Origin: Favolaschia claudopus
Lineage: Eukaryota; Basidiomycota; Agaricomycetes; Agaricales; Mycenaceae
DNA: 64,000 nucleotides
Assembly (NCBI GenBank): GCA_037176885.1
Contig: JAWWNJ010000002.1
Span: forward strand, 3,472,001 to 3,536,000
Direction of reading: 5' to 3'
In this document: positions 19,332 through 24,206 of the stretch, one piece after another
How the letters are laid out: each line of letters begins with the position of its first letter
Position numbering within the stretch: the stretch's first letter is position 1
Notes under the pieces: model-generated
The model's database searches: none
The model's input: the letters and a program-made list of their open reading frames with translations, nothing else
What the model was told of the DNA's origin: nothing
Translations under genes and position numbers: made by a program

Positions 19332-21411
19332 TCAAATATCACCACTGCAAAGGCCAAGCTGTCCTCGAATTAATCTGATCGAAAATCCGTTCAACTTTTC
19401 CTTGCGAAAGTCTTTCTCCCAGTCGTACAAAACATCCAGACCCTTCTTCGAGTTAATTTGCCAAAGCACCTGATTCGCCTCCTTGTCTTGACCAGCTGCA
19501 TCAGCTACAACTTTGTGAGGGAGAATTGGGCCGTTCGGAGCCATGAATTTAAGGTCAATTCTCTGCGCCACAGCGGTGTGCATCTCGGGATGTGTAACAC
19601 CTACGACGTGCGAAAAGAAATCGATGGTCGTCTGAAGCATCTCCTCTGTCACGGATGCGTCGGTGTCTGCAGCTCCCAAAATCACTGCGATAAGAACATG
19701 AGCACTGTCTGAGCGTCCACGAAGGTATATTTATCTTTACCTGGGCGGAGGAACTGAAAGGCACGATCAAAATTATCCTCGTTGACGTCGGAGAGTACTG
19801 AGCTCTCTTGCGCCTTGATCTGTTTGTATACGCCAAGGATCGCAAGGAGAAATCTAGAAGGGATTAAAAAAAGGGATTGGAATGAATCAAATTGTCGACA
19901 CACCGAGTATACGAGGTGCTGGTTTTCATATCATGAAATGAGATTGCTTCCGCTTCCGTGCAGTCGCCACGAATGGACGCGGAGATAGTGCTTGCCGCAC
20001 ATAATGCACTGGAAAATGCCAGATGAACACCGGACGAAAACAAGGGATCTATCTGGGTTGCAATCAGTAGTTGAGGTACTTCAGTGATGTCCAAATCGTC
20101 TTACAAACGCTGCAGGGGAAGTCCAATTTGACATAGCGCGAAAGCGACAATTCAGCGCTCACCTCCAGCATCCCCGACGATTCGATAGTTAGTACCGCCG
20201 TATTGGAGAGCGGAGTAACTATAGTCTCCAGCAGTTTTCACCTCGCCCAGGAACTTGCCGTCGCCAAGTAGATCGATAATTCCCGGAGTGAGCTGGAGCT
20301 GGGATAAATAATATTCCTCTCCAGAGTTGTGAGCGAGGAGCGCATTTTTCTTGCGAAGATAAGCGTCCTCCGACATCACGATGCCAACGGATGCCGTTCC
20401 ATTGTGCAGGGGAATGAACCACGCCCAGCCAGATTCATCTGAAAAATAAACGAACATTCGAATGATTTAATAGTTCAAGCTTCTCACCGGTGAGTGCCTC
20501 GAGCCATGGTGCGTTTTCCCGGCTTGTACCTTTTGCGTACGTTCCAGCTCCAGTCCAGTAACCCCACATTGCTCGATTTCTTAGAACTTGATTAAACCTG
20601 CGATTTTTCAGGTACCGAGTAGACATGACTCCGTTCCGACCAGAGGCGTCGACGAGCCACTCAAAATCGATTCGACCGCTGGCCCCTTCACGCGATAGCC
20701 ACTCCGCCGAGATGGGTTTGGATGGATCCTCTGCAGAGAAAATAATTTTTTGGACAGCGATTCCTTCGTGAATAGCCACCCCACAGCTTGATGCATACTT
20801 GAGTAAGAGATCGTCAAATTCCGAACGAACCTGTACGGATTATGTGGGCGGCCTGAAGAGTAGCAATTGCTAGGGACTGACCACATTCCAAGCGCTGACA
20901 TCGAAGTCGGCGTCTATGGACAATCTCTGTCAATTACATCGATCCATCCGAAAAGAAGATTCGCTTACAACCCTCTCGTTTGTGTTGGTTAAGCTTCAGA
21001 GCTGCACCAACCTAAGAGAACGCGGTCAATGGAGTGGTGAGTGAATAGGCATTCAGTTAACCTTGGGAGTAAAACCGTGATTTTCCACCCTCTCTTCCGC
21101 CCCGATGAACGAGAGGAAAGAGCGCGAGGAGGGGAGTAGGCTCTCTCCTATATGATATCGTGGAAACATGTCTTTTTCCAACAGATGGACCTTGAACCCT
21201 TCTGAAAGCTTGGTTAGTCGAGGAGGGTGGAGTGAATTTTCAAGCAGACCTCGGGCCAAAGCAGTTGCAGCATAGGAGCCAGCAGGACCTCCTCCAATCA
21301 CAAGAATCTGTGTCGAAGGCGGCGGCTTTGCAGTGGATTTATCCTAAATTCAATGTTTGCGACTGTAAAAGCATCATAGCAGTCGAGACATACTGGAGAG
21401 AGTGCGGACAT
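19332..21411 (-). CDS. Flavin-dependent halogenase
   Basis: FADH2-dependent enzyme expected to chlorinate an activated aromatic ring, using FADH2 from a separate flavin reductase, O2 and chloride. Hand splicing gives 11 exons and exactly 520 codons, typical for fungal halogenases. The N-terminus MSALSP is joined to a dinucleotide-binding motif [16 protein letters not shown], then [13 protein letters not shown], the FAD-halogenase segment. Later come [20 protein letters not shown], the diagnostic WxWxIP motif as ESGWAWFIP, and [20 protein letters not shown] near the flavin. A 5 nt exon (CGTTT, 20105-20109) is needed to complete GAFIDP. The C-terminal helices (exons 19853-19741 and 19684-19332) are intact. 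It is divergent to the O-methyltransferase 0.84 kb away. The family resembles the basidiomycete halogenases known from chlorinated sesquiterpene aryl esters. The substrate cannot be told from sequence. Confidence 0.9.
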
Positions 21412-22253
21412 GTTGGTTGATTCAAAGACGACTGCCAGACCAGATGCTGCGACGAAAAGTTATAAGATACAAGTCACGATTGAGTCATAGGTTCACTTGA
21501 CGAAGTCAAGGAACGGACAATGTACGTATAGCGGTGCTGGATGAGAAGCCCAGGTGATTGTTTCTCTTGCTTCATGAATCAGGATACCAGATTAGAAGCC
21601 CCAGTGCGATTCAAAAACAGGAGAGAGAGAGTACAGCCGGTAGAGCCGTACTACGCATGCCAGTAAATTGGGAACTTGTGGTAGCGATTGAATAAATTCT
21701 CTTTCTCTTCCCAGTGAATTGAAAGTCAAACGAATCTGGCACTCGGTAAGAACTCCAGCAAAGCAGGACAGCTGAGGAGCGACCCCGGGTACGAAGAACT
21801 GGACCCAAGTAAGAAGAAAATAACTTGACAAGCATCAAACATTGACTTAAATTCACAAGCGTTGTCATCGGCGGAAAACTTTCACTTACAGGGAAAACGA
21901 CGGAGGTTATGTTCAGAAAAATGGGACCCAAATAAGCCTTAGTGGATTTCCGTGCCCGCATAGGTAGCCGTTGTCTTCCTCTTGTGTTAAATTAAGGGGT
22001 TTGCTTCCGAACGTTCGATGAAAAGAATACTCAACGATTTAAATAGATGCCCTTCGGCAGCCATTCTCTAAACCAATTACGCAAATCTGTCGCAAATGCA
22101 GGAGATAAACATACCCTATCGTCTCCAACAACACTATATTTGATTCAGCCAATTGCACTTCACGCGCAATGAACATGCTCTATAAGAGATCGAGCAAGCC
22201 ACTCTCAATGCATTCAATTTTCCTTCAACTCACCAAGCTCAAACTGAACAACA
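21412..22253. promoter_or_regulatory. Shared upstream region of halogenase and O-methyltransferase
   Basis: 842 bp between two divergent starts. The methyltransferase side has CCAAT (as AGCCAATTGC, about 22147) and a TATA-like CTCTATAAGAG at about 22179-22189, some 70 bp before its ATG. A minus-strand open stretch (21961-21592, with a GTAAGT donor and a CCAG acceptor) could be a small gene, but has no recognisable motif and would sit inside the shared promoter. The arrangement suggests joint control. Confidence 0.5.
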
Positions 22254-24206
22254 ATGAACAAAGAAACATCCACCCTTCGCAGTCTAGCCAATATCATCAT
22301 CAGAGCGGTTGATTCGATGGAACGCGCCTACGTGCAGGCAGCTTTACCATTACCGTCCCTCGACAAGTTCTATGACCCAGGAGAGCATGCTGAGGCGCTC
22401 GCGCAAGATCCGCAAGTCGTGGCGGCATCGAAGAACTTGGTCGCTGCTTGTGCACAGATCAGTGCTACGGTTTGGAATCCTAGACGAGTTGTGATCAATC
22501 ATGCGCATGCGGTTAGTTTTACTCGCTGATTGCTGGAAAAAAAATACCCGCTAATATGAACTTGAAGTACCAAATTTCTTCCTGCTTGCACGCTGTTTCG
22601 GATTTCAATGTTGTGGAAGTTCTGCGCGAAGCTGGAGAAAACGTCAGTGATTCGCTCATTGTGACTTCAAGATGCAAATGCTTACGTTTGCTTGTGATGC
22701 AGGGGGCTAGCGTGAACGATATCGGAGAGAAGATAGGTGTGGATTCCGGGTTGATAGGTGAACGAATCGGTATTCTGCTCTGATCGTCAGCTGAAGAATA
22801 ACTTGTTGAATCAGAACGAATTCTGCGACTTCTCGCTACGCACCATATTTTCCGCGAAGTGTCCCCCGGCGTGTTCGCAAACAATCGGATTTCTTCGACG
22901 CTGGATAAAGGCAAGCCTTCCTGCGAACTATTTAAAAAGTGAGTTAGGCCTTGTTATAAAGAATGATTGGAAAGCGTTTTGAACGTACAAATCAGCCGAG
23001 AGACGCGATTCGTGGGATCGTCCGGCATTGCAGCCTTCGCAGAGCATACGTACGTGTATCGTTGTCCACCGAGTACCACACCAAATGACCATATAATTCA
23101 TTCATCAGCGCCGACATGGGAGGGAAAAGTGCACAGTACCTCGCAGGGTCCCTCCGAACGCCAGGTTTACTTCCGTTCAACCTCGGATACGATACCAAAG
23201 AGCCGATATTCGAATGGATGGAACGTCCCGAAAGCAGCTACCACGTCAATCGATTTGCAGTTGCGATGCCGGGAACGGCGGCGATGGAGCCTGAAGATTT
23301 GATTTTTCGAGGTGAGTTTCGGCGTTGTTCCGGCCCAAATGCAAATCTATGCTGCGAATTACTTATTGGCCGGGTGAATGAAGGATTCGACTGGAGCGCA
23401 TTGGCTTGCGAAAGCGTTATAGTGGATGTTGGAGGAGGGATTGGACACGTATCGTTGACCGTCGCGAAGAAGTATCCGCACATTCGCGTTGTCAATCAAG
23501 ATTTTGCGTCCCCAATCCAGATATCGAAGGCGGTTAGTCAAGCGAAAATACTGGATTCATTTCGAAACAGCTCACTGTGATAATGCAGCATTGGAAGGAA
23601 TGTTTCCCTGAGCATCTTGACCAACGAATGGTCGAGTTCCAAGGCGAGTTTACACCTACAATCTTTATTAGTTCTTTGAAACGGCAGATATTGACGGACG
23701 ACACAGTTCACGACTTCTTCAATCCCCAACCCGTGAAGAACGCCGCAGTTTTCCTGTTGAGACATATCATGCATGACTGGCCGGATGACAAGGCTGTGGT
23801 GATTCTGAGAAATCTTCGCGAAGCGGCACAACAAGAAACTCACCTCGTGGTCATCGAGAAAGTAGTTCCATTTGCATCGACGCGGACTCCAGACGATTCA
23901 AAGATGTGCCCCATTCGAGGGGCGAAGCCACCCGTGGCGGAGGCGCCGTTGTTGCCGAATTGGGGAGCGGCAGCGGCGGATATATACCTGTATGATCTTA
24001 CGGTGAGTACCAATCACAAATGCGCATATAGCGTATTTCGGTTCATGAAGCTGTCTACTTACTCACAGATGCACGCTTTGCTTGGGGGCATTGAGCGTAC
24101 GGCCCAAGGCTTCTACGAGCTTTTTGCGAAGGCAGGGTGGAAATTGATCGAAATTCACCAGAGCGCGGGTACGCAGATGAGCCACATTGTGGGGGTTCCG
24201 GCTTGA
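22254..24206 (+). CDS. SAM-dependent O-methyltransferase (COMT-like, fungal family 2)
   Basis: Transfers a methyl group from S-adenosylmethionine to a hydroxyl of a small, usually aromatic, molecule. Spliced by hand the gene has ten exons and 468 codons in frame. The N-terminal half has the dimerisation/winged-helix features (YQISSCLHAVSDFNVVEVLR, IGVDSGLIER, LLATHHIFREVSPGVFANNR). The SAM motif is VIVDVGGGIGHVSLTVAKKY. The catalytic stretch FLLRHIMHDWPDDKAVVIL has the His-Asp pair of this family, and the C-terminus is ERTAQGFYELFAKAGWKLIE. One intron (23644-23706) appears to use a GC donor. The neighbouring divergent halogenase suggests action on the same product; chlorinated methoxy-aromatics are common mushroom metabolites. 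The substrate is inference. Confidence 0.9.

Follow-up and report, generated by a model that had tools for sequence, protein, structure and literature searches.

In the agaric Favolaschia claudopus, a flavin-dependent halogenase gene and an O-methyltransferase gene stand head to head on contig JAWWNJ010000002.1, within the 64,000 nucleotides from position 3,472,001 to 3,536,000 that were analyzed here (hereafter, the window). On balance, the two genes probably form a small free-standing cassette for the chlorination and O-methylation of phenols, the scaffold being made elsewhere. Both genes are intact and carry the motifs of their enzyme classes, their close relatives have the corresponding fold class, and linkage between the two families recurs on the contigs of related genomes.

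Two Intact Genes With a Common Upstream Region

Hand splicing leaves both open reading frames (ORFs) intact, with 521 and 468 codons (Table 1). The genes diverge from a common upstream region of exactly the length, 842 bp, that had been proposed in an earlier note made from the sequence of this DNA; its claims of two intact genes and of a divergent layout are thus borne out. A pseudogene or broken-gene reading was dropped, since both frames are intact at the DNA level. Neither gene is a chance finding: both have relatives over their full length, the best E-values being 0 (halogenase) and 4.7e-297 (methyltransferase). A tblastn search of the window with six relatives (E ≤ 0.01) revealed no halogenase or methyltransferase fragments beyond the two genes. 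In the intergenic gap, internal repeats of at least 10 bp were sought as common regulatory elements and none was found; a bacterial-type promoter scan gave counts at chance level, its model being bacterial and hence not meaningful for a fungus.

Pfam matches and motifs agree with the enzyme identities given in the earlier note. The halogenase matches Trp_halogenase (PF04820, E = 4.9e-29) as well as RadH (PDB 8gu0, 437 bits), the fungal flavin halogenase of radicicol biosynthesis, and its close relatives have a RadH-like fold. The flavin adenine dinucleotide (FAD)-binding motif GxGxxG is present as GGGPAG at residue 23, and GWAWFIPL at residue 227 corresponds to GWxWxxPL. Lysine 84 (within KVGAA) aligns with K74 of RadH, in an alignment column without variation among 36 relatives that corresponds to K85 of P0003. 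In RadH-type halogenases, this lysine is the halogenating residue. The motif GDAGAFIDPxFSSG is found at residue 312, provided that a 5-nt microexon is spliced in. The WxWxIP motif, of which the residue 227 sequence is an instance, is named for fungal flavin halogenases (PMC9144378). Taken together, motifs, lysine and fold point to a member of the RadH/ArmH-type class of fungal FAD-dependent halogenases, with predicted chlorinating activity. The introns of the gene measure 48-56 nt. An acceptor 18 nt further on in intron 1, spotted by eye, would give an alternative protein of 515 aa beginning MSALSPPPPSTQ, an N-terminus found in relative P0002.

The second protein carries the Methyltransf_2 domain (PF00891, E = 6.6e-26, 91.4 bits for a cut-off of 22.3) and the dimerization domain PF08100 (E = 7.2e-11, 42.2 bits for a cut-off of 25.6). 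The glycine motif for S-adenosylmethionine (SAM) reads DVGGGIG at residue 271, and HDW is found at residue 347, where H347 is invariant in 37 relatives. The HDW histidine is the catalytic residue of COMT-like O-methyltransferases. One intron has GC-AG borders; the QVHDFF formed at its junction is common to P0121, P0152 and P0124, while P0123 has HVHDFF and P0122 reads through differently. The O(S)-methyltransferase of Pleurotus sapidus (PDB 8pha) is matched with 154 bits and 26% identity, and we know of no halogenase partner for this enzyme. In a structure comparison made with a relative of the window protein, the top match was GedA (PDB 7wh9, emodin 1-OH O-methyltransferase; 28% identity). 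Matches of the same fold included LepI, PdxI and HpiI, which are pericyclic enzymes, so that the fold alone is no proof of methyl transfer. Nevertheless, domains and motifs place the protein in the COMT-like Methyltransf_2 class, and it is predicted to methylate phenols.

Linkage of the Two Families on Mycenaceae Contigs

Relatives were taken as the best 120 of 5737 halogenase matches (E ≤ 0.001, from 7997 scored candidates) and the best 120 of 423 methyltransferase matches; statements on relatives below hold among these listed matches. A contig was considered shared when species and contig size in bp were identical, and no size recurred across species. The closest halogenase, P0001 (94% identity), and the closest methyltransferase, P0121 (94% identity, also 468 aa), share an 805,862-bp contig of F. 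claudopus. Similarly, the closest relatives from Mycena vulgaris, P0003 (77%) and P0124 (70%), lie on one contig of 975,527 bp. In the midpoint-rooted halogenase tree, the rows from F. claudopus that are closest to the window protein group with M. vulgaris in a set of seven rows that includes P0005 of M. venus (SH-like approximate likelihood ratio test, SH-aLRT, 100). The methyltransferase tree shows the same association in a set of eight rows (SH-aLRT 99).

Because both families are large in Mycenaceae (5737 and 423 matches), it has to be considered that the two genes became neighbors by chance, both being active but on unrelated substrates. Random placement of the genes indeed predicts some sharing of contigs: 8.8, 5.7, 4.0 and 2.4 shared contigs are expected for genomes of 60, 100, 150 and 265 Mb, respectively, sizes that are assumed except for that of F. 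claudopus. The number observed, 15 contigs common to the 111 with a halogenase and the 100 with a methyltransferase, exceeds the expectation for every assumed size. For methyltransferase contigs below 1 Mb, 6 of 59 are shared vs. 1.5, 0.9, 0.6 and 0.3 expected for the same sizes. Moreover, across the 15 shared contigs, distances between halogenases correlate with distances between methyltransferases (r = 0.33), a value reached in 7 of 2000 permutations of contigs and in 31 of 2000 random draws of listed halogenases from the same species (mean r 0.08, standard deviation 0.10). Co-divergence is exemplified by P0049 with P0146 and P0068 with P0163 in M. venus/M. albidolilacea, and by P0023 with P0147 and P0038 with P0153 and P0205 in M. 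latifolia/M. belliarum. In M. venus, the spacing of the locus tags of P0146 (MVEN_02258100) and P0114 (MVEN_02258500) suggests that these genes are about four genes apart. Linked genes tend to diverge together, and these comparisons provide moderate evidence for halogenase/methyltransferase cassettes in Mycenaceae. With the closest relatives sharing contigs in two species, chance neighborhood appears unlikely, although it keeps some weight.

Several observations count against a cassette. Sharing a contig is not equal to adjacency, and the neighboring position is seen in the window only. Six F. claudopus halogenases (P0002, P0004, P0029, P0048, P0104, P0120) are on contigs without a listed methyltransferase, and six F. 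claudopus methyltransferases (P0122, P0123, P0152, P0166, P0187, P0196) are on contigs without a listed halogenase; pairing is therefore not obligatory. Only one of the three M. vulgaris methyltransferases of the same clade, P0124, is on a contig with a listed halogenase. The correlation is modest, and the same-species null is weak where one to three halogenases are listed per species. Finally, the public F. claudopus models P0001 and P0002 pass from GDAG straight to DPLF, the AFI residues being absent from the halogenase motif (see below).

The published F. claudopus assembly has a size of 265 Mb, and 86.8% of its BUSCO genes are duplicated (PMC10905254), so that a locus can be expected to have several copies in this species.

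A Probable Tailoring Cassette for a Scaffold From Another Locus

The activity of the two enzymes, the order of their steps and a substrate common to both are predicted by analogy with characterized systems. With GGGPAG holding the reduced flavin, the halogenase would produce hypochlorous acid from chloride and O2 and hand it to lysine 84. On the RadH/ArmH model, a free rather than carrier-bound phenol would then be chlorinated ortho or para to its hydroxyl group. The methyltransferase would act next, H347 of the HDW motif serving as base for the SAM-dependent O-methylation of the (chloro)phenol. The aromatic scaffold itself would be encoded elsewhere in the genome.

A precedent for this division is found in Armillaria mellea, where the halogenases ArmH1-ArmH5 lie outside the melleolide cluster and act on free substrate (PMC9144378), chlorinating free melleolide F (PMC7778616). 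Like the window halogenase, they are basidiomycete flavin halogenases away from a biosynthetic cluster, but their substrate is a melleolide, and that of the window enzyme would be some phenol. The Armillaria/Desarmillaria rows P0040, P0059 and P0119 fall in another part of the halogenase tree. Together with the contig sharing of the closest F. claudopus and M. vulgaris relatives, the location of the ArmH genes lends indirect support to the suggestion in the earlier note that both enzymes act on a product made elsewhere.

The RadH gene sits in a polyketide cluster. In contrast, no polyketide synthase (PKS), nonribosomal peptide synthetase or terpene synthase domain was detected by Pfam in 40 of the 560 window ORFs of at least 60 aa, selected for their length and for a codon score that had been trained with genes from the window, a scan in which spliced genes can be missed. 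The earlier statement that the 64 kb hold no scaffold synthase thus stands for these 40 ORFs. The geodin pathway also combines O-methylation with flavin-dependent chlorination, but GedA and the halogenase GedL belong to a PKS-centered ascomycete cluster, unlike the F. claudopus pair. GedL is named in PMC9598291 and PMC9144378.

Candidate Products

Chlorinated methoxy aromatics require chlorination and O-methylation, the two reactions predicted for the pair. Small compounds of this kind, such as chlorinated anisyl alcohols and aldehydes or drosophilin-type chloro-methoxyphenols, could be made from benzoate or hydroquinone, either de novo or from lignin. Consistent with this idea, a GH7 cellulase gene lies in the same window and F. 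claudopus is a wood-inhabiting species (PMC10905254). However, the neighborhood yielded no gene that could be assigned to such a pathway. Among the matches listed in a literature search, chlorinated anisyl compounds and a halogenase were not found together, nor was drosophilin A found. Nothing tested supports the lignin-derived substrate put forward in the earlier note. We consider this assignment less likely than chance neighborhood.

The most interesting candidate target, and an attractive one, is provided by the chlorinated strobilurins and oudemansins, which have a 3-methoxy-4-chlorophenyl ring. This ring could be decorated by the two enzymes or by those of another F. claudopus copy of the pair, the genes lying apart from the strobilurin PKS cluster and chlorination ortho to the 3-hydroxyl preceding O-methylation. 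The pair would supply both missing reaction types. In the 2018 cluster paper, the cluster is described as lacking an obvious halogenase though producers make strobilurin B, and the chlorinating enzyme is given as unknown (PMC6158276). The ring of strobilurin B is 3-methoxy-4-chloro substituted, a bromo analog was obtained by feeding potassium bromide, and an early 3-hydroxybenzoyl-CoA branch has been proposed (PMC6085771). Within the genus, Favolaschia tonkinensis produces 9-methoxystrobilurins A, B and G together with oudemansin B (PMC6896759), and its strobilurins include two with a single chlorine (PMC6259672). On the other hand, the matches listed in the literature search included no report of F. 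claudopus itself making chlorinated strobilurins, and at least seven F. claudopus halogenases are among the matches listed, each a possible candidate. Besides, the branch leading to strobilurin B is proposed to diverge early, already at the level of CoA intermediates (PMC6085771), so that the true substrate might be something other than a free phenol. Decoration of strobilurins by these enzymes is somewhat less probable still than the making of small chloro-methoxy aromatics. The fuller proposal sees in the pair the cluster-unlinked module that is missing for the chlorination and O-methylation of chlorinated strobilurins and oudemansins, as one member of a Mycenaceae cassette family serving varied aromatic scaffolds; its chance is slimmer again.

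Favolaschia also makes chloroalkenes, calocerin B among them; a review sees no known enzyme for these compounds (PMC9144378). A phenol halogenase is not an obvious source of such compounds.

A Probable Five-Nucleotide Exon

The motif GDAGAFIDP is nearly invariant: G313-F318, D320 and P321 (P0003 numbering) are invariant or almost so across the 36 halogenase relatives. The pattern AG-CNTTY-GT, which the microexon and its splice sites follow, occurs once in the 110-nt segment concerned; the whole window, both strands counted, contains four occurrences. When the segment was shuffled 20000 times, a match arose in 62 cases. The F. claudopus paralog P0004 has AFI, and the annotation of P0001 and P0002 probably missed the microexon. 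A dead halogenase, in which splicing fuses GDAG to DPLF as these two public models read, is thus very improbable, given a microexon that has canonical splice sites, lies between introns of normal size and restores the motif, an unlikely outcome of chance, the presence of AFI in the paralog and an otherwise intact frame.

Surroundings of the Pair

Pfam matches at or near the cut-off in the scanned ORFs comprise GH7, ankyrin repeats (52.4-53.0 kb), an ABC transporter membrane region and a family-2 peroxidase, BTB and F-box matches being sub-threshold. Other sub-threshold matches (Fer4, Nepo_coat_N, New_glue, ToMV_Hel_N, SMC_N, Lipid_bd, DUF1843, Ank_KRIT1) were taken as chance or side matches, and the remaining ORFs of the 40 gave either sub-threshold matches or none.

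A BTB-domain gene adjoins the pair. Among the best 120 of its 163 relatives, those of F. claudopus include 12 on the 3,575,801-bp contig (the window's own gene included), 10 on the 805,862-bp contig and 7 on a contig of 1,463,009 bp. These three contigs, the first being inferred from the window, also hold copies of the halogenase, suggesting haplotypes or segmental copies. The 975,527-bp contig of M. vulgaris has no BTB relative among these 120, and in that species the BTB flank was not seen to travel with the pair. On the other side, a long F-box-like ORF (17640-19145, plus strand) ends 186 bp before the 3' end of the halogenase gene.

Further away, all on the plus strand, are a GH7 cellobiohydrolase-type gene in pieces (36283-38161; profile positions 1-189 and 289-435) and a multi-exon ABC transporter gene (41270-47577), ABCC-like by eye, with ABC_membrane matches at 42517-43035 and 45356-45889, one of them just below the cut-off. 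A heme-thiolate peroxidase gene (48628 to about 49800; PF01328, E = 2e-10 on ORF 49165-49506) is found 24 kb beyond the methyltransferase. With ...SACPALNALANHG in its first exon and EHDASL in a later one, it is CPO/UPO-like and possibly encodes another halogenating or hydroxylating enzyme. Some 10 kb between the BTB and GH7 genes (about 26000-35700) have weak coding signal and low-complexity open frames.

Table 1. Coordinates of the gene pair, its parts and the adjoining gene in the window.
Feature	Position	Strand	Details
FAD-dependent halogenase, RadH-like	19332..21411	-	11 exons, 521 aa; gene model, Pfam, RadH match, 94% identical F. claudopus relative P0001
Halogenase exons	21411-21394, 21343-21250, 21201-21062, 21011-20969, 20913-20882, 20830-20488, 20438-20163, 20109-20105, 20052-19904, 19853-19741, 19684-19332	-	
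Microexon CGTTT, 5 nt	20105..20109	-	Lies between introns of 53 and 52 nt; completes GDAG-AF-IDP
Shared 5' region	21412..22253	.	842 bp between the two start codons
SAM-dependent O-methyltransferase	22254..24206	+	10 exons, 468 aa; gene model, PF00891 and PF08100, PDB 8pha, relative P0121
Methyltransferase exons	22254-22511, 22568-22642, 22703-22757, 22815-22938, 22996-23049, 23109-23311, 23384-23532, 23589-23643, 23707-24002, 24069-24206	+	
GC-AG intron of methyltransferase	23644..23706	+	FQVHDFF formed across junction
BTB-domain gene adjoining the pair	24517-25572	+	Protein 329/329 identical to F. claudopus P0241, contig 3,575,801 bp

Significance

The earlier note had called the locus uncharted. 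This holds for function only, no functional work on these halogenase and methyltransferase genes being among the matches listed in the literature search; F. claudopus relatives already carry the annotation "putative halogenase", and the halogenase search scored 7997 candidates, of which 5737 match. Both enzyme families are known and close relatives already named; the pair adds a connection, amenable to testing, with an unsolved biosynthetic problem. The microexon is a warning that gene models may lose a 5-nt exon from an active-site motif, and stand-alone tailoring pairs can escape genome mining centered on clusters. A halogenase next to an O-methyltransferase, from two families whose linkage recurs in Mycenaceae, narrows the search for the enzyme chlorinating strobilurin B to a short list of candidates that can be tested, and such pairs may help to explain how the rings of chlorinated mushroom antifungals are decorated.

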